This document shows positions 46,467-62,179 of a stretch of 64,000 nucleotides of DNA, one piece after another. Below the pieces are notes generated by a model. That model had not been told where the DNA came from. It saw nothing but the letters and a program-made list of their open reading frames with translations, and did not search any database. Position numbers and translations under genes: made by a program. This DNA is from Thalassotalea hakodatensis (GTDB lineage: Bacteria > Pseudomonadota > Gammaproteobacteria > Enterobacterales > Alteromonadaceae). The stretch is taken from the NCBI RefSeq assembly GCF_030295995.1, contig NZ_AP027365.1, positions 4,000,066 to 4,064,065 on the forward strand, read 5' to 3'. How positions within the stretch are numbered: position 1 is the first letter of the stretch; every line of letters starts with the position of its first letter.

Positions 46467-48131
46467 TTAAAGTGACAAGGAAAGTTGCTTTCGCTTATGG
46501 CAACTTGGGTGATAAAGATTATTTAATATAGATACAAGTTTAGGTATTTTTTTGTAGATCGATGACTCAAATATTGGCTCAATTTTGTTTTTACTCAATG
46601 CCAACTTTATTGTATATGGCGCAACATTATGAACACTTCCCCACCTCTCAATACACTCATAGTTGCTAAGAAAATTCGCAATGGATATTCCTGTATATCT
46701 TTTGTTAGCAACGGTCGGATCTAACTCAGTTAATATTTCTGCTTTGCCTAATTGACCAACTAGAGTTCTTGAAATGCCGATAATCCTTGCTGTTGCAACT
46801 TGTGTAAAAACTACGCCTGACTGTTTTAAGTATTCATTTTCCAAAAAATGAATGATGACCTGCTCATTAACCTTGATTGAATCTATTAGTGATTTTTTAG
46901 TTTTATCGATATGCAGAGGCAGTCTTGCGGCTATAATTTCGAACGCCAACGATTCATCAGAAAGTAAATAAACTGACTTCAACTCTTCAAGCTCTGAAAG
47001 GTATAAAGTGTTTTCAGGATCTTCCGTATCACATGCCATGATAGAGCTGATAAATAAGCGAGCATCAATAATGGTATTTCTTCCGCTTTTTGTATTAGCT
47101 GTGATTTTAAAGCAATCAAGTTGAAACAACTTACGCACTAGTGTCATTTTGCAATTAAACATTTCGGAAAACCCAGCTGGGTCTAGATGATGGCGTAATT
47201 GTTCATTAGCTAAAGTATTGTTCGCCTCTCTACTTGTCGATTCATTTCTTATCCTGCAAGGTGTCATTGTACTTTCACTCAACAGCTCATTTTTAGGAGC
47301 AAAAGAAAGATAACTAGGTTTAATGCCCTTGATTAGCCAATTACCTTGAAGTTTATCTTGTAACTCATGCACCGGAAAAAAGACGGCACGCTCACTTAAA
47401 GCTTTATATTGATGCCGTACATTTGCTAAAGATTGGCACCAAGTACTTATTGCATCAATGTTTGTTAAAAGGGCATAGCCTTGTTGGGCCACATCAGTCC
47501 AATTATCTATAATTGTTGGTAAAAGTTTTATTTTATTGTGCATTGAGTCATATGGTCGAACTACTCGATATATTGATTCGGCTAAATCTTGAAGAAACAG
47601 CGCACGCTCTTCAAAATCTAAGCGATGAAAATGCAATACATGATCTGGCATTTTTTCTACTTGGCAGTGATTGGCAATATCATTCCACGAATTGAGGCAT
47701 TTTGAGCACCCGTACTCAATAAGTGTTGAATCCCAGTTAAATTTTTCTCCGCATGGACACTTTTCTACTAACTGAACTTGATGCTTTGCACAATGAGTAA
47801 TGGGCATTAACTGCCAGTCCTTCATTAAATGGTTTTGGTCTCGCATACAAAAAGGACAAGCTACTGGTTGCCTATCAATTAAGTATGATAGCTGCTCTTG
47901 TTTTTCATCTGACACAGGCCAGAAAGAGGCTGGATTAGCTTCATCAACCAGATTGCAAACGCATTCGACTATGCTGCTTTCACTGCTCGCTATATTGATA
48001 GTCTTAACATCCTGATAATGTGAAAATAACTGTTTAACTTCAATGTAGTCATTTTCAGTAGAAAGTCTGACAAGGTAGCTACGAGCACTTTCATTATTAG
48101 CTGGTAAAATTTGCGTCATTAACTCGTACAT
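46467..48131 (-). CDS. tniQ: TniQ/TnsD-type target-selection protein
   Basis: The 554-residue protein has the TniQ start (ANNESARSYLVRLSTEN) and a zinc cluster CPFC (residues 92-95), HCAKH (113-117), CPCG (125-128), CSKC (142-145). The long C-terminal half with helix-turn-helix-like parts resembles TnsD. In Tn7-like elements this protein picks the insertion site and recruits TnsC. It is the last gene of the operon, overlaps tnsC by 13 bases, and is followed by a strong terminator. Its size suggests a TnsD-like protein that binds a specific attachment site; which site is not evident. Confidence 0.87.
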   Translation of the reverse strand: MYELMTQILPANNESARSYLVRLSTENDYIEVKQLFSHYQDVKTINIASSESSIVECVCNLVDEANPASFWPVSDEKQEQLSYLIDRQPVACPFCMRDQNHLMKDWQLMPITHCAKHQVQLVEKCPCGEKFNWDSTLIEYGCSKCLNSWNDIANHCQVEKMPDHVLHFHRLDFEERALFLQDLAESIYRVVRPYDSMHNKIKLLPTIIDNWTDVAQQGYALLTNIDAISTWCQSLANVRHQYKALSERAVFFPVHELQDKLQGNWLIKGIKPSYLSFAPKNELLSESTMTPCRIRNESTSREANNTLANEQLRHHLDPAGFSEMFNCKMTLVRKLFQLDCFKITANTKSGRNTIIDARLFISSIMACDTEDPENTLYLSELEELKSVYLLSDESLAFEIIAARLPLHIDKTKKSLIDSIKVNEQVIIHFLENEYLKQSGVVFTQVATARIIGISRTLVGQLGKAEILTELDPTVANKRYTGISIANFLSNYECIERWGSVHNVAPYTIKLALSKNKIEPIFESSIYKKIPKLVSILNNLYHPSCHKRKQLSLSL

Positions 48132-49078
48132 GATGTCTCCTCAGAACCATAATAATTCATGATTTCAGTATCCAATTGCTTTGCACTCAGCTTAAAAGGA
48201 TTAAAAGTTAGTGGATTTTGAGGGCGATATTCTTCGTAAGCTTCTGTTAAACTTTTGATATTTATCGCCTCAGTTGAGCCAGCGATTTCGATCGCTTCCA
48301 AAAATAACGAAGATAAGTTTCTGAATAACCCATCTGTAGCCAAATAAATAGCATCTGACAACGCTTCCAGATTAGCTTTACAATTAAGGGCATTTTGGTA
48401 AAACTCGATAATCTCAATCCAACCAGCGTCATTGTTGCCATATGGTGCTAATACGTGATTTTTACGACAGCGTGATTCCAGTTGTTTCTCTTCTTCAAAC
48501 TTGCCTTTGATCTTTAGAAGTTCCATAGTTTTTGGCATGCCAACAAGTACTATTGGAATTTTTAATTCGTTAATAATCTCTTTTAACGCATCCACATTGT
48601 CTTGAGTAGTTGTTCCGCTGCCTCGAAGTAAATGCTGTGACTCATCAAATATGATTAGTTCCACTCTAGCTTTTTCTAACTTACCGTATATTTGCTTCGC
48701 TATGTTATCCGTACGCCCAGTTACGACCTTCGCCCCCGTTAACGCTCTGAATATTTCAGCCGTGAGTGATGCGACAGTCGCTTTTTTAGGGATATCTACA
48801 GCTAACACAGGAACAATTGTTTGATAGCCCTCTTTATATCGTGAGTTGCGTTTTAAATACCTTTTAATGGTCTGGCTCTTACCAACCCCTGCAACCCCTG
48901 ACAATATCATTGACCTAGGATTGCTAGTGTTGGCTGTAGCTTTACACCTATCAAACGTATCATTTAAAAATTGAATACGAGATGTGGCGGTTTTCCTCTC
49001 TAAAAACTCACTTGTTGCGGGGAGTAGCGTTCTGTTTTTTCTCTCAGGGTTCATCAATAAAGCTTCATTACTTACCAT
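48119..49078 (-). CDS. tnsC: TnsC/TniB-type AAA+ ATPase
   Basis: The 319-residue AAA+ protein has Walker A GVAGVGKS (residues 61-68) and Walker B LIIFDESQHLL (Asp145, Glu146). It links the target-selection protein to the transposase and prevents insertion near an existing copy in this family. It overlaps tnsB by 7 bases and tniQ by 13. At 319 residues it is closer to TniB-like lengths than to the 555-residue TnsC of Tn7. Confidence 0.88.
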   Translation of the reverse strand: MVSNEALLMNPERKNRTLLPATSEFLERKTATSRIQFLNDTFDRCKATANTSNPRSMILSGVAGVGKSQTIKRYLKRNSRYKEGYQTIVPVLAVDIPKKATVASLTAEIFRALTGAKVVTGRTDNIAKQIYGKLEKARVELIIFDESQHLLRGSGTTTQDNVDALKEIINELKIPIVLVGMPKTMELLKIKGKFEEEKQLESRCRKNHVLAPYGNNDAGWIEIIEFYQNALNCKANLEALSDAIYLATDGLFRNLSSLFLEAIEIAGSTEAINIKSLTEAYEEYRPQNPLTFNPFKLSAKQLDTEIMNYYGSEETSCTS

Positions 49079-50931
49079 TGTTCTTCTCCGCTACGATAGT
49101 TTTCTTCGCTAGAATGAGGGACGGTATTAGAACGCTCTATTGAACTGTTTTCGTCATATTCAGTGTCGTCAAAGTCTTCCGCAGTCAGATATTCTTGAGG
49201 TACAGGCTCTCCGTTTTTACGCTTCTTGGCGAGAATGTTACGAGCTTTTTGTGCTGTTAAAAGTTCAGCAGTATCTGGTCGAGACTTGCTTTTTAGCTGT
49301 GACTTTATTGTGCTAAAACTAACATCTTTAAGCTCATCTGCACCTTTAGTATTCAATAACTCCAACATCGTTCCATCTGGCAGGACAGCAGTTACTGCCG
49401 AGGCATCAAAGTCATCTATCAATACGGTAATTTTTTTAGCATTACCTTTTTGATCAATATACCCACGTAGAAATGTTTTGAATTTCGATGAATGAAATTG
49501 CTGACCTCGATGTTGAATTCCTGCTTTAAGTGATGGAGTTAATTTCTTTTCTCGGCCTCTTAGTAATAGGCGTTCATCCATATCTTCTAACGTAATATGG
49601 TCTGAACACTGAATATGCTCATCCCATACCTCTAGTGGAGTTTGATTGTTCAACGCTTGTAATGGCTTTTTGTGGTAAACCTCATAAATGTACTGCTCCA
49701 AACGCAGTAAAAATTCTGCAACGGTAGTCTTAGCCATACTTTTCAGGTTTTCATCTGTAACATCTTTTTTGTCCTTCTTGGGTACATACCCTTTCACTTT
49801 CGTTAAGAACTCAGCACGAATTTTTTTGTTAAATGCCTCTATGTAAGGCTTTTCTTGTGGCGCATTGGAGGCACAATATTTAATTTCTGCACCAAGAGAA
49901 CCCAAGAATCGCTTCGTTGCTTCAGCGCGATAACCGGGACCATTATCTAAAACATACTTTAAACCTATGCCCCCAATTCTTTGGCCGTGCGGTTTATTAT
50001 TGACTCGTACAGAGTGAGATAAAGAGTGAACAACAGCGGCAGAAGATTCACCCTTGTCCAATTGAACGGTATAACCCAATATGCAGCGGCTAAAGCAGTC
50101 AATCACCAAAAATAGAGAAACTTTACCAGCATAGCTGCCATCATCATTAAGTAACCCTAGGTTAGGACACAAGCCGTCACACTCAACACGCTCTAATATG
50201 AAACTTGTCTCAATGGAAGAAAGAGCAGCTCTATTTTCAAGTTTTGCGTATGCTTTGCCATGTCGTTTTTCATCAACAATGTGCTTAGGTATTCTCTTTA
50301 GGAATCGTCTGATCTTTCCTTCTGTTGGGCATGTCTCTGGGTAGAACTCATTGCGTTTTGCTTTAAATTTCTTTTCAACAATATTAATGAACTCACTAAC
50401 AGGAGGCTGTGATCTGAGCAAGTAATGCCTTTTGGCTAATTTAAATAAGAAGTCCTGAAGTTCAGGAGACATTCTTTGTTCTCTAGGCCCTTGATAGCTA
50501 TAAATTTGGGGAGCAATATCTCGGCCATCTCTAATCCACTGCCTGCGCCATTTATCGCTAGTTTTAAATTTAGGCTTCTTAGGGTGTTTATCCTTGAGCA
50601 GTTCATAAACGTTATCAATTGCCTCATTTGCATATATTTCCACGCAAGGATTAGGTAATTTATCTAAGGCTTCACAGTACGCTAGTCGAAACTCTGCAAC
50701 TTTTTGTTGCTCTTCATCCAGCGGAAAATATTTTAATGAAATAGCATTTTCAACCAATGTATATTTACTAGCGTTAACATTAGAAATAAACTCCCCCGTT
50801 TTAATTTGCTGATACTTACCGTTATCAAACTCTAGAAAAACAACTTTATGGTCAAAGTACTTAATACTGCCTGATACAGATGGAGTTCTAACTCTTTGAC
50901 CTATCGATAGGTTAGCAATAGTAGCTTTCAT
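49072..50931 (-). CDS. tnsB: TnsB transposase (DDE)
   Basis: The 619-residue protein has the retroviral-type catalytic core with Asp252 (VECDGLCP), Asp329 (KYVLDNGPGYR) and Glu365 (EKPYIEAFNKK). The spacing between the last two is 35 residues, exactly the D-35-E pattern. N-terminal DNA-binding domains precede and a beta-barrel (about 470-540) follows the core. It cuts and joins the 3' ends of the transposon. The gap to tnsA is 2 bases and it overlaps tnsC. Confidence 0.92.
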   Translation of the reverse strand: MKATIANLSIGQRVRTPSVSGSIKYFDHKVVFLEFDNGKYQQIKTGEFISNVNASKYTLVENAISLKYFPLDEEQQKVAEFRLAYCEALDKLPNPCVEIYANEAIDNVYELLKDKHPKKPKFKTSDKWRRQWIRDGRDIAPQIYSYQGPREQRMSPELQDFLFKLAKRHYLLRSQPPVSEFINIVEKKFKAKRNEFYPETCPTEGKIRRFLKRIPKHIVDEKRHGKAYAKLENRAALSSIETSFILERVECDGLCPNLGLLNDDGSYAGKVSLFLVIDCFSRCILGYTVQLDKGESSAAVVHSLSHSVRVNNKPHGQRIGGIGLKYVLDNGPGYRAEATKRFLGSLGAEIKYCASNAPQEKPYIEAFNKKIRAEFLTKVKGYVPKKDKKDVTDENLKSMAKTTVAEFLLRLEQYIYEVYHKKPLQALNNQTPLEVWDEHIQCSDHITLEDMDERLLLRGREKKLTPSLKAGIQHRGQQFHSSKFKTFLRGYIDQKGNAKKITVLIDDFDASAVTAVLPDGTMLELLNTKGADELKDVSFSTIKSQLKSKSRPDTAELLTAQKARNILAKKRKNGEPVPQEYLTAEDFDDTEYDENSSIERSNTVPHSSEENYRSGEEQW

Positions 50932-50933
50932 TT

Positions 50934-51575
50934 TTAGGCTCCTATCACTAATTCTGTTTCGTTTGTTAATGGCTTTGCATAGTCAAAACGATATTGTTGA
51001 TGAGCTAGCATGAGCTTGGTTATACGAAGCGTAATATTTAACTTTCTTGCGGTTTCCTGCATTGCTCCCCAAGTTGTATTGTTGCCTACAGTATCACTGA
51101 GGCTTTGTGCTTGCTCCTTGTTTAAAGGCAACTTGCGCAAATGACACAACCTGATGAGGTTTTGCTGAGTAAATCCCTTGCAAACTTCTTCATCAGTTAA
51201 ATATTCAACTTGTTGGCTTCTGGATTGGAGTAGCACTTTACGAAAGTGACGGAAGCGTGCTTGTTCGTTGGGATCATCGACAAATACTTTAGGCTTTATT
51301 TCTAGCTTTTTTATCGTATTATCACGATTGATAACTTCTGTATCTACCGTATAGGCCGTGGGTTTGCCATTTACCCCTTCATAGATGTATTGCACTGGTT
51401 GTGCCTTGTAGCTCAATACGTCAGCTTTAAAATCGAGATATCGATAAGCCATAAGCTCTAAATTACTATCGCACCATACCCTTGCGCCATTTTTGACCGA
51501 TGGAAAAAAATCAATCCCTCTTCCTTTTCTGTAGTTTGGTAAGTATCTAACGTCTTTAATTTGGTTTGTCATCAT
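50934..51575 (-). CDS. tnsA: TnsA endonuclease
   Basis: The 213-residue protein is a restriction-enzyme-like nuclease that cuts the 5' strands in heteromeric Tn7-like transposition. The catalytic set is visible: Glu40 (SNLELMAYRYLDF), Asp78 (YTVDTEV), Glu92 and Lys94 (KLEIKPKV). Having TnsA means cut-and-paste movement is expected, not cointegrates. It is the first gene of the operon; the transposon end and TnsB sites should lie just upstream. Confidence 0.9.
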   Translation of the reverse strand: MMTNQIKDVRYLPNYRKGRGIDFFPSVKNGARVWCDSNLELMAYRYLDFKADVLSYKAQPVQYIYEGVNGKPTAYTVDTEVINRDNTIKKLEIKPKVFVDDPNEQARFRHFRKVLLQSRSQQVEYLTDEEVCKGFTQQNLIRLCHLRKLPLNKEQAQSLSDTVGNNTTWGAMQETARKLNITLRITKLMLAHQQYRFDYAKPLTNETELVIGA

Positions 51576-55316: not shown

Positions 55317-55344
55317 TTGACTTGTTAAATCAATAAGATAATAT
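55317..55344 (+). promoter_or_regulatory. sigma-70 promoter of the Wadjet-like operon
   Basis: TTGACT (55317-55322) and TAATAT (55339-55344), 16 bases apart, are near-consensus and would start transcription near 55351, 28 bases before the WYL regulator start. Confidence 0.65.
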
Positions 55345-55348
55345 TATG

Positions 55349-55363
55349 TAATCATTTTGATTA
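55349..55363. promoter_or_regulatory. inverted repeat, candidate WYL-regulator operator
   Basis: TAATCATTTTGATTA has perfect 5-base arms and sits on the predicted transcription start of the operon, where a BrxR/CapW-like repressor would block initiation. Confidence 0.45.
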
Positions 55364-55378
55364 TGTGGTGGCACGATA

Positions 55379-56272
55379 TTGAGTTCATTAAGTAAGTTAG
55401 ATTTAAGCTACGCCCAAAAACAGAGATTGGCCTATATCGATTTCTTGTTAATGTTTAGAGGTCACTTCAGTCGCAGTGATTTAACTAACAAGTTTGAGAT
55501 GGGATTGGCAAATGCGACTCGTGACATTGCCCTGTATAAAGAGCTATCACCAAAGAATATGGAGCTTGAAAGCTCTAAAAAACAATATTTGCAAGCAAAA
55601 GCCTTTAAACCGCTTTTCAAGCATGATGCGAAGAAAACGTTAATAAAACTCGCTAATGATATTACGGATGGCTTTGATGCTATCGGTGACGTGACTTTCC
55701 CTATCGAAGCACCAAGCCAATTAAACGTTCCTGATATATTCATTGTTGCCAAACTTGTTCAAGCGATACTAAATAACAAACCCGTCAATGTTATTTATAC
55801 CTCGTTAAGCAGTGGTTCTGCCTCAAGAGAGTTAGTTCCTCATTCAATTGTTGATAATGGACTACGTTGGCACGTGAGGGCCTTTGATAGAAAAACAAAA
55901 TCTTTCAGAGATTTTGTGCTTACTCGGATAAGCAAAGTTACGATTAAAAACCAGACTGCTGAGTCACATGAAGACAAATTAGAGGATCATCAATGGATGA
56001 GAATGATGCCTTTGCAGCTAGTAGCCCATCCAAAAAATGTTCAACATCCTACAGCTATTGCGATGGATTATGGTATGGAAAATGGTGTTCTTGAGTTAAA
56101 TGTACGGGCAGCGTTAGCTGGATACTTGCTTAGACGATGGAATGTAGATTGCACCACCAATGCAGATCTTGCGGGTGGCGAATATCAACTTTGGTTGAAG
56201 AATAGGCAAACTCTGTATGGAGCAGAAAATCTTGCCATTGCTCCCGGTTATCAGCAGTCAGAGGACGACTAA
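55379..56272 (+). CDS. BrxR/CapW-like WYL-domain transcriptional regulator
   Basis: The 297-residue protein has an N-terminal winged helix with the block LSYAQKQRLAYIDFLLMFRG ... ATRDIALYKELSPKN, shared with defence-island repressors of the BrxR/CapW group. A WYL domain (about 130-205; GLRWHVRAFD, FVLTRISKV) and a C-terminal dimerisation part (LAGYLLRRWNVDC) follow. WYL domains bind nucleotide or nucleic-acid signals. The only possible start is TTG at 55379, with a GGTGG about 7 bases before. Its stop overlaps the next start by one base (TAATG). It probably represses the whole operon until infection or DNA stress. Confidence 0.85.
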   Translation: MSSLSKLDLSYAQKQRLAYIDFLLMFRGHFSRSDLTNKFEMGLANATRDIALYKELSPKNMELESSKKQYLQAKAFKPLFKHDAKKTLIKLANDITDGFDAIGDVTFPIEAPSQLNVPDIFIVAKLVQAILNNKPVNVIYTSLSSGSASRELVPHSIVDNGLRWHVRAFDRKTKSFRDFVLTRISKVTIKNQTAESHEDKLEDHQWMRMMPLQLVAHPKNVQHPTAIAMDYGMENGVLELNVRAALAGYLLRRWNVDCTTNADLAGGEYQLWLKNRQTLYGAENLAIAPGYQQSEDD

Positions 56273-57066
56273 TGCACGACAAAAGAATTGGTAAGTATCT
56301 TCATAGTATTGAGCAATCCAAAGCAATTAATTACTCGAAATTTCTTGCTTTACTGCCTGAACAATTGTGTGAAGAAGTTAAAGAAAAAGCGACTATTAAA
56401 TTTTTAAGTAAAGGCTCTGTAATCGTTGAGGTTTCTTGTGAGCAACTTTTAGAAAAATTGCGCTCATTGGCGATTGAACCGTCAAGTCGCATTGATGCAA
56501 CGTTGCTAGGTGACTCTCATAAAGTAAATACATCGACTAGCTACTTGTTAGCGTACCATCAATCTTCCGTTGATGTTCACCCCGATACGATTATTAGTAG
56601 TAATGACGAAACACACCTTAGATTTCAACCTAAAAAACGTCTAGTGATTATTGAAAATGCAGAGCTATTTTTCGCAAGAGAAACACTATTTGCTCAGATG
56701 AACAAAGCGTTTTCTCTTTCCTTGTCATTTGACAATACAGATTTGGTTTTTGGTGCCGGAAATCAAATATCCAACAAGCATAACTATACATTTATCAATC
56801 AGTATGAATCGATTTTATGCTTCTTTGATTACGATTTGGGTGGTTTGAAAATATATAAGGCGATGCGAAATATGGTAGGGAGCAAGGCTAAATTCTTGGA
56901 GCCTAGCTCAGATAATTTAACTGAATTTTTCATAAAGAAACCGAAGACCCAAGAACAGTACACAAAGGCGTTAGAAACTGCCAACAGTCTTGGCTTAAGC
57001 AAGCTACACAGCTTGTTTGAATCAAAAAAATCATTCATGGAGCAAGAAGCTTTGTTGGCTTTATAA
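56272..57066 (+). CDS. short Toprim-domain protein, JetD-like
   Basis: The 264-residue protein has a C-terminal Toprim-type domain: acidic residue Glu128 in RLVIIENAE, Asp186 and Asp188 in CFFDYDLGGLKIY, and a conserved GAGNQ turn before. This is the layout of JetD, the topoisomerase-VI-like nuclease that cuts closed circular DNA in Wadjet. It is much shorter than typical JetD (roughly 380-400 residues), mainly because the N-terminal arm is reduced. GAGGA before the ATG supports the start. It is followed by the SMC gene after 15 bases. The family call is from motifs and gene context. Confidence 0.72.
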   Translation: MHDKRIGKYLHSIEQSKAINYSKFLALLPEQLCEEVKEKATIKFLSKGSVIVEVSCEQLLEKLRSLAIEPSSRIDATLLGDSHKVNTSTSYLLAYHQSSVDVHPDTIISSNDETHLRFQPKKRLVIIENAELFFARETLFAQMNKAFSLSLSFDNTDLVFGAGNQISNKHNYTFINQYESILCFFDYDLGGLKIYKAMRNMVGSKAKFLEPSSDNLTEFFIKKPKTQEQYTKALETANSLGLSKLHSLFESKKSFMEQEALLAL

Positions 57067-57081
57067 GAAGGAATCAAAACA

Positions 57082-60030
57082 TTGTCACATCAATTTAATT
57101 TTGTATTAAAGAAACTGGTACTAGTTGATTCGGCTGGTTTTTGTTATTCAGAGATAGAGTTAGATAAACACACAATTTTACTTGGCGAAGGTAATGTCGG
57201 TAAATCTAGCCTTCTTAATTGCATTCGTTTGTTTCTATTGCCAGAAGTCAACTTCAATCGAGCAAAAGATAAATTTAACTTCAAAAGTTCAAATGGTTAT
57301 GAATATGATAAAAACGAGTCATTTGGGCATTATTTTCCTAGCAAGTACTCGCATTTAATTATCGAAGTAGAGAAAGTTATCGCAGGCAAACGATACACCC
57401 ACTGTCAGATTCTAAATAGAGGCAAGAACCTTTCATTTGAGCGTATTTTTACTGCTTTGCCATACCAAGAAATTCAGCATCTATTCTGGCAAGTAGAGGA
57501 AGAGGACGAACATAACATCGGCTCTAGAGTAGAAAAGCTATCGACTCAAGATGTGTTTACTAAAATTAAGGCTAAAGATAAGCACTGTATTTCAGTCAGA
57601 GACCCTCAAAAATTGAAGGATTTGATGTATGCGCGAGACATACTATCTGAAACTGAAATGCGTTATAGCCTTTTTCCGCTCAATGATGCATCTGACGAAA
57701 ACGTAGAGTCGTTGAGAGCGTTAATTTTAATGCTTTTCGATATGGAGACATCAAATGAAGGTGTTGCTAAAGCGGTTGCTAATATTGTTGAGTCAGAGAA
57801 AAAAGAGACAAGCGATGCATTAAACTTTGATATTCAATCTTTTTTATTAGCACATGACTCACTTAAGCTGGAAGAGCAAAAGTTAACTGATATCGAAAAC
57901 AAAACGAGAGAGTTTGAAACCCTAAAGTCTAACTTTGCCAAATATAGTGAACTGTCAGAAGTTGAGACTCGTTTTGTTGATTTTTATCTGCACCTGAGTC
58001 GCAAATTAAAAGAAACAAATGAAGCCGTAAACGAATCGGCAGGGAAAATTAAGGAATGGCAACAGCAATTACAACCTATTGCTGACCAAGTTAAGGTAAT
58101 CAACCAAAATTTGTTCACAGCTAATAAAATCATTAACACTTCAGAACAAAATATAGCTAAGACTCAACAAGCGATTGATAAAGGAGAGTTCGAGTTAAGC
58201 CGTTATGTAAACATGACGCAACAAGAAGTACTAGAGCTTCTTGATGAGGAACTGATTGATACGCAAGAGAAGATTCAAGCTTATCAAAATACGAACGCTA
58301 GACGTATACGAATTAATAAGCTTGAAACTGAAATTACTCAGTATCGGAAAGCTCAACAGAATATAGAGTTGGATATTAAAAATTCAGAGTTTGCGATTCA
58401 AAAGCAGTTGCCTAACGATACACTAGATCTACTAAATTCAATTAATTCACGGCTCTTATTGGCAAATCCGGGTAAGGAATTGGAAAAGCATGAAGTAGAT
58501 GCAATTGAAAATTTTAAAGGCTTATTTAGTGACCAAGGTTATTTATATAACTTTTGGGGGCAAGAATTTAGAAAATCTGACTCTAGGGCAACTCGCGATT
58601 TACACAAAGAGCTAGAAAATATTGAATCCGAAATTAATGCTGTGATTTTGGAAAAATTTGACCTTGAAAAACAAGATACTGAAAACCCATTAATCATAGA
58701 GAAAAAACTTCAAGAACTAGGGAAAGAGTTAAAAGAAATAGAGCGCGTTAAAAAGGTTATATTTGAATTAAATGATAATATCAGCGCTTTAAAAATATAT
58801 AGCGGACAGCTAGCTGAAAACCAAGCTGCGGTTGAGGAATTTTCACCTCAAGTAGTAACCTTATCAAAACAACAAGGTGAACTATCTGAGTTAATTGAAT
58901 CTGAAAAACAAAAACAAACGGGTTTAAGTCGGGAACAATCTCAGCTATTGGCACTTCAAAGTAACGCGAATGGTACTAAACAAGCCTATCCAAAAGTTCA
59001 AAAACAACTAGAAAGACAGGGAACAGCTAATAATAACACCACTTTAACATCAGAATATTTATCTTCTCTTCAACACGACTTACAGCAAGTTGATCAGTTG
59101 AGGGGGCAGATACTTGAAGGGCTTCGAGATTTTGCTCGGGATGGGTTTATCGAACTAGAAGATGATCTTTTTAACTCAAGTCCAGTACCGAGCACGATTC
59201 ATCAGGCTTATGCCAACGTTAAACAAATCTATGATGAACTTGAAGGTCAATGGCACCTACTTAAATCAAAAACTCGTTCGCATAATGAAAGTGTCAGTAA
59301 TTATGCTGATATTTTAGAAAAGAACTTTGAGCATATTAGTCGCTTTGAGAATCAACTTAACCGCTCGTTTGAAGGTATTTCGGTTAATGACTTAACTCAA
59401 ATTGAAGTGTCTATCCATGTAGACCCGCGTTTTAAAAATCTCATATCTGAAATTCAAAAGAGCTATAACGAGTTTAGTGAACAAGCTCTTTCTGAGCAGT
59501 TCTATCTGAGGCTTCAGGCATTTAGCAATGCGTTTTTCAAAGATGGTGAGCGTAATAAGCTAGTAATGTCTGATGTAATTAAAAAAGTCAGCTATAGAGT
59601 TAAGAAAGATGGCCATGACAGTTGGCAAACGAAACAACAATCAACTTCTACCACTGCATTGATCAACCTTAAACTGGTGCGAATTCTACTCGCAAAATTA
59701 CGAGCTGATAGTTGTATGGTGAAGCTACCAGTAATCATGGATGAAGCGGCAAATATCAATGTGAATCAGTACGAATGGCTTTTAAGAGATATCAAGGACA
59801 GCGGTTTTTATCTTTTCACCGCAGGTACTCATAGCTCTGGTGCAGAACTAGTTCACATGATAGGGAACCATTATGATGTTGACGCTTTAAAAACAGCAAA
59901 ACCATACACAGCCGAGAGAACACGCGTAGTTTGGGATGGCCCACAGTCATTTTACGATGAAGAAAGCTTTGAATCATTTGTAGAAAATGATCAGATTGAG
60001 CTTTTGGAAGGTGTAAATGAAACAATTTAG
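57082..60030 (+). CDS. SMC/MukB-like ATPase, JetC-like
   Basis: The 982-residue protein has an N-terminal ATPase half with Walker A GEGNVGKSS (residues 35-43), long coiled coils from about residue 240 to 750 (broken near the middle, as for a hinge), and a C-terminal half with Walker B LPVIMDEAANI (Asp887, Glu888). It matches the MukB/JetC type of SMC motor that extrudes DNA loops. GAAGGA lies 9 bases before the TTG start, which is taken as the start. It overlaps the kleisin-like gene by 14 bases. In Wadjet the motor measures plasmid size and hands small circles to the nuclease. Confidence 0.8.
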   Translation: MSHQFNFVLKKLVLVDSAGFCYSEIELDKHTILLGEGNVGKSSLLNCIRLFLLPEVNFNRAKDKFNFKSSNGYEYDKNESFGHYFPSKYSHLIIEVEKVIAGKRYTHCQILNRGKNLSFERIFTALPYQEIQHLFWQVEEEDEHNIGSRVEKLSTQDVFTKIKAKDKHCISVRDPQKLKDLMYARDILSETEMRYSLFPLNDASDENVESLRALILMLFDMETSNEGVAKAVANIVESEKKETSDALNFDIQSFLLAHDSLKLEEQKLTDIENKTREFETLKSNFAKYSELSEVETRFVDFYLHLSRKLKETNEAVNESAGKIKEWQQQLQPIADQVKVINQNLFTANKIINTSEQNIAKTQQAIDKGEFELSRYVNMTQQEVLELLDEELIDTQEKIQAYQNTNARRIRINKLETEITQYRKAQQNIELDIKNSEFAIQKQLPNDTLDLLNSINSRLLLANPGKELEKHEVDAIENFKGLFSDQGYLYNFWGQEFRKSDSRATRDLHKELENIESEINAVILEKFDLEKQDTENPLIIEKKLQELGKELKEIERVKKVIFELNDNISALKIYSGQLAENQAAVEEFSPQVVTLSKQQGELSELIESEKQKQTGLSREQSQLLALQSNANGTKQAYPKVQKQLERQGTANNNTTLTSEYLSSLQHDLQQVDQLRGQILEGLRDFARDGFIELEDDLFNSSPVPSTIHQAYANVKQIYDELEGQWHLLKSKTRSHNESVSNYADILEKNFEHISRFENQLNRSFEGISVNDLTQIEVSIHVDPRFKNLISEIQKSYNEFSEQALSEQFYLRLQAFSNAFFKDGERNKLVMSDVIKKVSYRVKKDGHDSWQTKQQSTSTTALINLKLVRILLAKLRADSCMVKLPVIMDEAANINVNQYEWLLRDIKDSGFYLFTAGTHSSGAELVHMIGNHYDVDALKTAKPYTAERTRVVWDGPQSFYDEESFESFVENDQIELLEGVNETI

Positions 60031-61411
60031 CGCCATTCAAACACTAAAAATAATGTTAGAGCGACCTAACATTATGTTTAATGTCATCAAAAAAATGGAC
60101 GCGCAAAATGAGCGTTTCATTAGTGAGGGAGCTGTAGCATTTGAAGTTTTGGAAAGTATAAAGCACCTAGATAAGCTAGAGCAGCAACGTTTCAAAATAG
60201 CTTATGCAACGGACAATTTAGCAAAGTCACATATTGTTGCTGATCAAGATCAGGTTGATAACGTTAGCCGCTTAATGTTTCAAGAATCCGTTGTTTCTAT
60301 TTTTAGGCTTTGTGAAACATCTCTATATCAAGAGCTAACAGATGCAAAATTAAAAGCTGAACTCGCTTCTTTTTGGCATATTCAAAAGAAACTTCTTTCT
60401 GGTGATTGTAGTTTCAACTCAATGGATTATGACTATACAGAGCTGGTAGATGAGTTATTTCACAAGCTCGGTAGTTTACTAGATTTGCTCAAGCGCAACT
60501 TGGTTAGAATGCAGAGCATTAATAGTGATTTGGAAAAACTATCGTTTGAGGTGAGCAAAGACGGTACTGACTTTGTTGAGTACAGACAAAAAGTGCTAGA
60601 TGACGTAACGCATCTATATGAAAGGCATATTCTTCCCACTCAGCGATTTGTTAATCCTGACGTAAAGTTAGTGGATGGAGACAACCTGCTAGCGACAATC
60701 AACTCTATAAAGTTGCTATTTGATGCTCATGGAAAACATGAGCTTTCTGACCAAGTGTTTCGCTATGGACTGAGTTTTACCAACATCATCAACCCACTAA
60801 AAGACGTTTCAAATCAGATAAATGGTTTTATTCGCAAGACCCAGAAGAGTTTAACTCAATTTAACGCGATGGAATGGCACTTTGAACGCTTTAAGAAAAA
60901 GTATGAAGAAACTCTGGATGGTCGTGTAAATCGCACAAAAATAGATAACTCTTTCGCTGATGACGTTCCTTTCATGAAAAATGTGAAGCGAATTCCGAGG
61001 CCCAAAGGATTAAAAATTGAAAATAATAGCTCTTATTTTTACAACATATTCAAAGATCTTGAGTATCGAATCCAAGACCAATTACTGCTATCAAACGAAG
61101 ATATAGAAGCAGAAGGCCAAGCTTTGGTCTCTTTCACCTCGAAAGATCGCTTAAAGAGAGCAAAGGCAATATATGACTTGATAGAAAAGCTCTCATTGAG
61201 AGAATCAAAGGACGTAATTGCTACCCTACATTACCGCCTTCAAAGTTTATTACCAGAATATCACTTTGTTGATCTTATAAATGCTGTCGTCCATTTCATG
61301 AAAAAGACACTTGATGGAAAACGTCTGATTAAGACAAACAACAAGGCGTTCATTCAACAAGAAAATAAATATTACGTATATAGGATTGTCATCTTGCAGG
61401 AGTCTAACTAA
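60017..61411 (+). CDS. kleisin-like protein, JetA/MksF-like
   Basis: The 464-residue, mostly helical protein (TLKIMLERPNIMFNVIKKMD; VSRLMFQESVVSIFRLCETS) fits the size and place of the JetA/MukF kleisin that bridges SMC heads. No catalytic motif is seen, as expected. GGAAGG directly before the ATG supports the start inside the SMC gene. Its stop overlaps the start of the next gene by one base. The assignment relies on operon position, length and helical character; primary sequence alone is not decisive. Confidence 0.68.
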   Translation: MKQFSAIQTLKIMLERPNIMFNVIKKMDAQNERFISEGAVAFEVLESIKHLDKLEQQRFKIAYATDNLAKSHIVADQDQVDNVSRLMFQESVVSIFRLCETSLYQELTDAKLKAELASFWHIQKKLLSGDCSFNSMDYDYTELVDELFHKLGSLLDLLKRNLVRMQSINSDLEKLSFEVSKDGTDFVEYRQKVLDDVTHLYERHILPTQRFVNPDVKLVDGDNLLATINSIKLLFDAHGKHELSDQVFRYGLSFTNIINPLKDVSNQINGFIRKTQKSLTQFNAMEWHFERFKKKYEETLDGRVNRTKIDNSFADDVPFMKNVKRIPRPKGLKIENNSSYFYNIFKDLEYRIQDQLLLSNEDIEAEGQALVSFTSKDRLKRAKAIYDLIEKLSLRESKDVIATLHYRLQSLLPEYHFVDLINAVVHFMKKTLDGKRLIKTNNKAFIQQENKYYVYRIVILQESN

Positions 61412-62001
61412 TGGAAAGAGAAGTTATTTACAGCTTTGAAGAAATTCCTTACACCAAAAGTGCTGAGATTTACCGACTATTCTCTCAAGGTCGAGTGCTC
61501 AATAAGCAGCGCTATGACGATGTTCACGGTTGCTTAGTAGATGATGATTTATTCACATTGGTATTCAATAAAATTAAGCACTTTTCCCTTTTCTTTAAAC
61601 ATATGGGGTATGACCTAAAGTTTGATGAAGACGGAGACTTTTACTTCACTCAAGACCTTCGTGACGCTAACAACGATGAATCAGATGATAATGCCATGAA
61701 GATTCAATCTATCCTGCTTTTTATTGGAAGGTACTATGCAACAGTAGGCGATTTGGCACAGTTACAAGATCCTATGTTTGGGCTGAAGGAATCAGATATT
61801 GATGCATTAAAACAAGACGATTTGCTAGCAAGTTCGCTGAAGGCTTTAAGGATAGACAATTGGGACAAAGCACTCGAATACCTGACAAGCAGAAGCCTTA
61901 TATTTAAAGTGTCTCAGGATAAATATGTGCTAAGTAAAGCCGCAATGACATTTTTGAATAGGTTGATAGAGGCTCATTCTGAGTTTATCAATAACAACTA
62001 A
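61411..62001 (+). CDS. MukE/JetB-like winged-helix subunit
   Basis: The 196-residue protein has the MukE/MksE-like block FTLVFNKIKHFSLFFKHMGY followed by DLKFDEDGDFYFTQ, and a C-terminal winged helix (DKALEYLTSRSLIFKVSQDK). In these complexes it binds the kleisin and DNA. AGGAG lies before the ATG. It closes the five-gene operon; no clear terminator follows in the 178 bases before the next gene. Confidence 0.75.
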   Translation: MEREVIYSFEEIPYTKSAEIYRLFSQGRVLNKQRYDDVHGCLVDDDLFTLVFNKIKHFSLFFKHMGYDLKFDEDGDFYFTQDLRDANNDESDDNAMKIQSILLFIGRYYATVGDLAQLQDPMFGLKESDIDALKQDDLLASSLKALRIDNWDKALEYLTSRSLIFKVSQDKYVLSKAAMTFLNRLIEAHSEFINNN

Positions 62002-62179
62002 GTCAGGTAGTAAATTTAGAAGAGGGTACTTACTCATCTATTTGAATGATAGCCTGAACTAAGTTAGTCGACTTATTTCAATAACTATTGAATTATTGTT
62101 GTCATATACTTATTAGTTGGTAAAACAGCGAAAATTATTTACTATTGTGAAGAAAATTCACTAAAAGGATCATGAGGTT

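Follow-up and report, generated by a model that had tools for sequence, protein, structure and literature searches.

A 64,000-nt stretch of the Thalassotalea hakodatensis genome (here, the window; NZ_AP027365.1, positions 4,000,066 to 4,064,065 of the forward strand) carries a five-gene operon that probably encodes a self-contained SMC (structural maintenance of chromosomes)-nuclease complex of the MksBEF branch, which would cleave circular DNA in the manner of Wadjet and be controlled by BrxR-type autorepression. Coordinates are positions in the window unless a locus handle precedes them; the host genome is a single contig of 4.28 Mb. The first gene encodes a WYL-domain regulator of the BrxR/CapW family (55379 to 56272; TTG start, 297 aa; Pfam WYL E value, 3.7e-12). 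It is followed by D, a short JetD/MksG-like Toprim nuclease (56272 to 57066; ATG start, 264 aa; DUF7281, 1.1e-6), C, an MksB-like SMC ATPase (57082 to 60030; TTG start, 982 aa), A, an MksF-like kleisin (60017 to 61411; ATG start, 464 aa), and B, an MksE/MukE-like KITE subunit (61411 to 62001; ATG start, 196 aa; Pfam MksE, 1.4e-22). All five open reading frames lie on the + strand, as do the motifs described below, and are open from start to stop, with successive junctions of a 1-base overlap, a 15-base gap, a 14-base overlap, and a 1-base overlap. The open reading frame check thus reproduced the genes, coordinates, and junctions of a first-pass annotation, which was made from the sequence letters alone and had suggested a divergent Wadjet type. 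Its nuclease-bearing SMC complex stands, but the kin of A, B, and C proved to be MksF, MksE, and MksB and not JetA (DUF3375) or JetB. The family is best filed as one that probably works like Wadjet and whose sequences place it on the MksBEF branch.

This placement is based on profile-profile alignments (hhalign), a check that the first-pass annotation had proposed, against reference operons fetched from the same order, in which Mks names were assigned by kinship. C aligned to MksB with a probability of 100 and an E value of 8.1e-59, compared with 99.5 and 1.5e-21 for JetC, and B aligned to MksE at 98.2 and 1.8e-12, compared with only 13 and 0.0015 for JetB. The kleisin aligned to MksF at 89.7 and 2.4e-6 over 406 columns and gave no profile signal to JetA. 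Because the scores to MksB, MksF, and MksE exceed those to JetC, JetA, and JetB, the motor, kleisin, and KITE lie nearest to MksBEF in these comparisons. D aligned about equally well to JetD (96.9 and 4.9e-9) and to short MksG (96.6 and 1.1e-8).

Three catalytic motifs of D are nearly invariant in the family: the acidic residue E128 in an IIENxE motif (56653 to 56655; E in 37/37 D proteins), D186-Y-D188 (56827 to 56835; each aspartate in 36/37), and EQE at residues 257 to 259 (57040 to 57048; 37/37). Six reference JetD proteins have GDxDxxG (6/6), which D186-Y-D188 resembles, as well as RLEQE (6/6) and an ENE motif (5/6). Pfam matched D to DUF7281 above the cut-off and to JetD_C below it (4.5e-4), and a literature search on DUF7281 found nothing. 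The structure model of D has a mean predicted local distance difference test (pLDDT) score of 91, and five solved structures matched it below an E value of 0.001: a Corynebacterium glutamicum nuclease (8b7f; the best, at 1.5e-5) and four topoisomerase VI-type chains. The query TM-scores of these matches are low (0.39 to 0.44), and the domain arrangement of D therefore differs. The short D remarked upon in the first-pass annotation (264 aa) turned out to be family-wide, with lengths of 257 to 341 aa (median, 273; the 257-aa entry is ended by a contig edge) compared with 382 to 426 aa in the six JetD proteins. Since JetD column 108 is the first one aligned in the profile comparison, we place the missing part at the N terminus on sequence grounds; the CAP domain of JetD lies in its N-terminal part, according to the available text of PMC10586767.

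The ATPase motifs of C are also intact across the family. Walker A (GEGNVGKS, residues 35 to 42; 57184 to 57207, checked in the DNA) has G40 and K41 in 38/38 SMC proteins, and Walker B (LPVIMDE, residues 882 to 888; 59725 to 59745) has D887 and E888 in 38/38. The ABC signature, QSTST (residues 853 to 857; 59638 to 59652), retains S854 in 38/38, and at residue 856 the usual Gly, present in 26/38, is replaced by Ser in 12/38. These 12 proteins, which include the C of the window and have intact Walker A and B motifs, form one group (support, 99) in a quick tree built from the head regions of the SMC proteins, so that one change suffices to explain the replacement. In the same tree, the 38 family members form one group with a support that is not strong (SH-aLRT, 85), separate from the MksB group (96) and the JetC group (100). 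The tree is unrooted and includes several long branches, and the SMC proteins of loci L036 and L123 neighbor the family group. C gave no profile match to MukB (hhalign, single MukB reference), and its only Pfam match was to the AAA_29 P-loop domain, below the cut-off (9e-4). When compared with its relative at locus L041, C is 98 to 100% identical over residues 1 to 250 and 92 to 100% over residues 701 to 950, with 84% identity in the last 32 residues and 70 to 86% in the coiled-coil residues 251 to 700.

Six of six family B proteins tested matched Pfam MksE (PF21980), and that of the window exceeded the cut-off. For A, Pfam returned nothing useful (FadA, 0.1). Its structure model is weaker than that of D (pLDDT, 76), and no solved structure matched it below an E value of 0.001. 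Among 350,542 chains, the six best-ranked matches to this model comprised five from MukF-containing entries and one from a JetABCD entry (E values, 1.2e-3 to 0.16). Based on this fold ranking and the MksF profile match, A may be a MukF-type kleisin, an assignment that we do not hold firmly.

The order Toprim nuclease-SMC-kleisin-KITE (D-C-A-B) was found in 39 of 43 homologous loci, and the remaining four are truncated versions ended by contig edges. This order, whose conservation the first-pass annotation had proposed to examine by collecting homologues, is a fixed trait of the family and not a peculiarity of the T. hakodatensis genome. Several Marinobacter and Halomonas loci are near-copies, so the 39 loci do not represent 39 independent events. 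The 43 loci exclude L033, L034, and L040 (a D match without a family SMC), L036 (D joined to a different SMC operon), L045 (D replaced), L046 and L068 (contigs beginning at C), and L009 and L028 (duplicates). Locus L061 was counted as D-C-A-B, with an intact D ∼1.6 kb upstream and a D fragment adjoining C, and locus L005 has two small genes between C and A. A chance cluster is ruled out because the block recurs in the same order and because dN/dS was 0.014 to 0.18 in the 10 of 23 pairwise comparisons in which it could be computed (one with a dS of 4.4; dS was saturated in the other 13). Neither a lack of structural likeness to the Jet proteins nor a failure of the genes to stay together, either of which the first-pass annotation had named as fatal to its reading, was encountered.

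The family is patchily distributed. Profile searches with D found matches in 13 of 394 genomes of the order (16 matches, 12 of them in D-C-A-B operons) and, in a phylum-wide sample, in 8 of 398 genomes, all within the window's own class. Scanning the species genome collection for a pattern yielded 32 confirmed loci from 139 pattern stretches; by their titles, these belong to gammaproteobacteria or unplaced Pseudomonadota, with one from Burkholderiales and one from a Bacteroidetes metagenome bin. No homologue was found in Escherichia coli genomes in a search for near relatives. A search with the KITE protein in a class sample of 369 genomes gave a single match in each of two further genomes and also revealed another copy of the system, unlike the first, at 0.86 Mb in the host genome. 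This second, distantly related D-C-A-B system (∼861370 to 869058 of the host genome; L007:5371-13059) is accompanied by a divergent WYL gene, and a gene resembling a GIY-YIG protein by eye lies 3' of it. Two relatives of C were found by tblastn among 72,556 plasmid records, both carried by large plasmids, one from Photobacterium damselae and one from Methylophaga thalassica.

The operon spreads alone as a cassette. It shares 87.6% DNA identity with a Pseudoalteromonas flavipulchra locus over 55406 to 62009, which spans all five genes, and 89.9% with a Colwellia chukchiensis locus over 56262 to 61991, which spans D-C-A-B only; no further match was found in the compared flanks of either genome. 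A same-genus genome has a 19.5-kb stretch whose match to the window ends at 42.2 kb and resumes ∼4.8 kb past the window's end. The stretch between those two matches has no counterpart there, and the outer match adjoins an engB-like gene, as judged by eye.

Some related loci depart from this arrangement in their nuclease gene. At L036:7643-14954, a D of the family, 29% identical in the profile alignment, heads a different SMC operon, in which a 1,227-aa SMC precedes proteins of 214, 409, and 280 aa; from this locus, the nuclease gene appears to move between SMC systems. The D genes at L033:7581-8414 and L034:7615-8502 have no SMC partners in the stretch fetched, retain the three catalytic motifs, and adjoin a gene that resembles glycerol kinase by eye. 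In a metagenome bin, ∼200 bases with two near-identical repeats, recognized by eye, occupy the place of D (L045:3950-4160), with WYL, C, A, and B still present despite the replacement.

The regulator that leads the operon is homologous to BrxR and CapW over its whole winged helix-turn-helix-WYL chain, bearing out the BrxR-like protein suspected from the sequence. Residues 8 to 294 align to residues 9 to 295 of the solved structure 7qfz (E value, 8.2e-85), which is BrxR of Escherichia fergusonii (PMC9122601, in the text available), and matches to CapW (9c5g, 2e-32) and to another BrxR entry (7t8k, 3e-25) were also found. Provided that the ungapped offset of the alignment holds, Arg16 occupies the position of BrxR Arg17. 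Its leading place, which the first-pass annotation had noted, holds in the window but is not fixed in the family: of the 42 loci that extend far enough upstream, 20 have a WYL gene adjoining D (5 codirectional and 15 divergent; one, at L059, is a fragment of 66 aa) and 22 lack one. The regulator is thus optional in the family, and in heading an SMC-nuclease operon, the WYL gene differs from the BrxR and CapW cases.

Upstream of the regulator, a consensus scan identified a promoter-like -35/-10 pair (TTGACT, 16 nt, TAATAT; 55317 to 55344, + strand; 9/12 matches), which is weak when taken alone, as the region holds 12 such sites compared with a shuffle mean of 22.2. A candidate operator, the palindrome TAATCA-TTT-TGATTA (55349 to 55363, + strand), begins 4 nt after the -10 element and ends 15 nt before the WYL start codon, and it is the sole match in the window at up to one mismatch (expected, 0.54). 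The same palindrome precedes the WYL start by 9 to 16 nt in L041, L043, and L045, where the promoters are otherwise unalignable; it is absent at L027, which also has a codirectional WYL gene. Across 132 loci, and leaving copies of these sites aside, the palindrome recurs at one further place, in L120, where it is not near the WYL-like gene. According to the available text of PMC9122601, BrxR is a repressor whose operator lies directly downstream of its promoter, and the inverted repeat in the window likewise directly follows the promoter-like pair; its arms (6 nt) and spacer (3 nt) are shorter than those of the E. fergusonii site (11 bp and 5 bp, respectively).

We propose a mechanism by kinship with MksBEFG and JetABCD, from which similar behavior is expected. 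In those systems, two motors joined through the kleisin extrude DNA, and closed circular DNA is cleaved by the Toprim protein as a dimer (PMC10586767, PMC10123090, and PMC12287153, each for the part of its text available). Here, SMC dimers with kleisin and KITE would pair up, load onto DNA, and extrude loops using ATP. The motors would exhaust the DNA of a small closed circle, stall, and activate a dimer of D, whose cut would lead to the loss of plasmids and possibly other circular invaders while sparing the chromosome. The BrxR-family repressor encoded by the first gene would bind the palindrome downstream of the promoter and hold expression of the operon low until released by some signal. 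Because the nuclease is short and the kleisin different, the sequences suggest that the nuclease docks onto the motor differently than in type I.

In favor of this proposal, we count the gene order, the profile kinship of the subunits, the catalytic motifs, the fold of D, the BrxR homology with its palindrome, and the cassette transfer, together with the host's own ScpA and SMC-family protein, the two unlike D-C-A-B systems in one genome, and the PADLOC matches in the flanks. Several observations weigh against it. D has no counterpart of the first ∼107 JetD columns, and its activation may therefore differ. Of the four subunits, the kleisin is the least securely assigned (fold E value, 1.2e-3; pLDDT, 76). 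The best PADLOC match among six family SMC proteins was to LmuB of Lamassu (5.5e-5, in 2/6), ahead of the best match to a JetC model (3.7e-4). In PDB profile searches, JetABCD and MukBEF chains were absent from the hits listed, which were the best 60 of 236 for C, mostly coiled coils, and all 5, 10, and 2 for D, A, and B, respectively. Searching the PDB with the single sequences of C, D, or B was uninformative.

The flanking genes also give little numerical support. We compared 111 flank proteins (every second of 221 proteins of up to 900 aa, from 236 in 35 loci) with 120 control proteins from 15 arbitrary regions, using PADLOC at an E value of 1e-15, and found similar numbers of families, 152 in the flanks and 135 in the control. 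Enrichment in a defense island, as measured by PADLOC counts, was therefore rejected. Among the 25 families displayed for each sample, flank matches included PglZ, GajB, argonaute, HerA, a CBASS cyclase, viperin, and a reverse transcriptase helicase (one protein per model), and the control also had strong candidates, namely, type I methylase and specificity genes, LeoBC, PDC-S05, PDC-S23, RtcR, and mad2/mad3. The flank matches are no more than a hint of a defense role.

Nuclease-free MksBEF is known in chromosome dynamics, and the complex could instead be an accessory chromosome condensin of the MksBEF type, with the Toprim protein acting as a topoisomerase-like or DNA-handling partner and not as a defense nuclease. 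This is what one would expect if the kinship of C, A, and B to MksB, MksF, and MksE extended to function: related genomes have MksFEB operons that lack a nuclease (L118, L119, and L121), and MksBEF is involved in chromosome segregation in Pseudomonas (PMC7485682, in the text available). The presence of a D match in only 13 of the 394 genomes of the order, the cassette-like transfer, the two unlike copies in one genome, the copies on two plasmids, and the WYL regulator adjoining D in 20 of 42 loci all argue against such a role. The host, moreover, already encodes ScpA and a 1,171-aa SMC-family protein, and we rejected a housekeeping condensin on this ground. We consider a chromosomal role unlikely.

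The system might also act chiefly against phages, or through abortive infection once forms of phage DNA are sensed, and plasmid loss would then be a by-product. BrxR-family regulators colocalize with phage defense systems (PMC9122601, in the text available), and some of the flank proteins match antiphage models in PADLOC. The functionally known kin of the operon, JetABCD and MksBEFG, nevertheless act on plasmids (PMC10586767 and PMC10123090, in part). No homologue was found among 50,697 phage records, and none of 141 pattern stretches from viral contigs was confirmed as one, results that say little either way about a role against phages. On balance, a primarily antiphage function seems rather improbable, and we retain cleavage of circular DNA as the likely activity.

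The remaining alternative is that the operon is simply one of the catalogued Wadjet types I to III. D itself is a JetD-like Toprim nuclease by profile, motifs, and fold, though short and with JetD_C below threshold; it reaches a PADLOC JetD1 model at 2e-7, and among six family D proteins, 5/6 reach a JetD3 model and 5/6 a JetD1 model at an E value of 0.01. At the same threshold, PADLOC detected none of 37 kleisins and one of 35 KITEs, weakly (JetB1, 4.3e-3); A and B of the window had no PADLOC match even at an E value of 1, and C was barely detected, at 3.8e-4, so that PADLOC does not recognize a JetA, JetB, and JetC set here. A DUF3375-family JetA, expected of type I, was found neither by Pfam nor with the JetA profile, and the host genome has no DUF3375 match at an E value of 1e-5. 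The JetC references, taken from type I loci, lie apart from the family in the quick tree. Type I references comprised L113 to L117, with a DUF3375 match, and L124 and L125, assigned by eye. The order A-B-C-D, given as usual in the first-pass annotation, holds in four complete DUF3375 loci and the two assigned by eye; L116, a DUF3375 locus, has no clear D. Type I Wadjet and the MksBEFG of Corynebacterium share with the family four kinds of subunits, a Toprim nuclease with similar motifs, and the fold match to 8b7f. Type I differs in its order, its JetD of 382 to 426 aa, its JetC of 1,095 to 1,354 aa (953 to 1,088 aa for C in the family), and a JetA without detectable kinship to A. Membership in types I to III is accordingly the least probable of these alternatives.

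The likeness to MksBEF, by comparison, consists of profile kinship over the full lengths of C, A, and B and similar sizes of the reference proteins (MksB, 917 to 959 aa; MksF, 406 to 425 aa; MksE, 177 to 204 aa). An MksB-like SMC, an MksE-like KITE, and, least securely, an MksF-like kleisin are all present, but the reference order is F-E-B(-G), compared with G-B-F-E in the family, and the SMC proteins form a separate tree group. Three of five MksBEF references lack a nuclease gene (L118, L119, and L121), and in two (L120 and L126) MksFEB is followed by a Toprim gene of ∼290 aa (287 to 293 aa). At L120:5032-11541, MksF-E-B precede a 293-aa MksG-like Toprim gene, and a divergent WYL-like gene, recognized by eye, lies at the other end. 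MukBEF resembles the family in the shared Pfam assignment of the KITE (PF21980, which has matches in E. coli as well) and in the likeness of the A model to MukF entries; it differs in having no nuclease and a MukB of 1,492 aa (one reference locus).

We suggest tentatively, at somewhat less than even odds, that the family constitutes a further class of SMC-nuclease immunity beside Wadjet types I to III: derived from MksBEF, with a minimal topoisomerase VI-A-like nuclease gained perhaps independently and reduced in its N-terminal domain, often under BrxR-type control, with a nuclease that swaps between SMC families and a subclade with an S-x-S signature. A literature search found no description that we recognized as this D-C-A-B family, and none on Wadjet in Colwellia; key Wadjet and Mks papers fell outside the search, so a prior mention is possible. 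Until 2023, SMC-based plasmid immunity was studied mostly in type I, according to the available text of PMC10586767, and a type II structure has since been published, judging by a title in a reference list. The family unites condensin-type MksBEF subunits with a JetD/MksG-type nuclease in one conserved cassette and bears on the passage proposed between chromosome condensins and immunity (PMC10586767, in part). The compact nuclease and altered signature offer test cases for how an SMC motor switches on a nuclease; if the reading is correct, the S-x-S signature may set a different ATPase cycle or DNA size threshold. Because none of 37 kleisins and only one of 35 KITEs were detected, surveys based on PADLOC would probably miss the family.

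Two sets of neighboring genes were also observed. Tn7-like genes lie in the same variable region as the operon, at 46467 to 51575, where Pfam recognized a TniB-type tnsC and TniQ above the cut-offs and an integrase-core tnsB below the cut-off. A 213-aa gene in the tnsA position has no Pfam hit, and that end faces the operon. Because the gene in the tnsA position faces the operon, the layout of Tn7 places the operon outside the element, and we rejected the operon as cargo of the Tn7-like element; no convincing transposon ends were found around the Tn7-like genes. Just past the operon and running beyond the window (L008:2246-7105), we observed a 706-aa protein that resembles a GHKL ATPase by eye, with no Pfam hit, a protein with a subthreshold DHH hit, and a HARE-HTH protein, which are possibly further defense genes.

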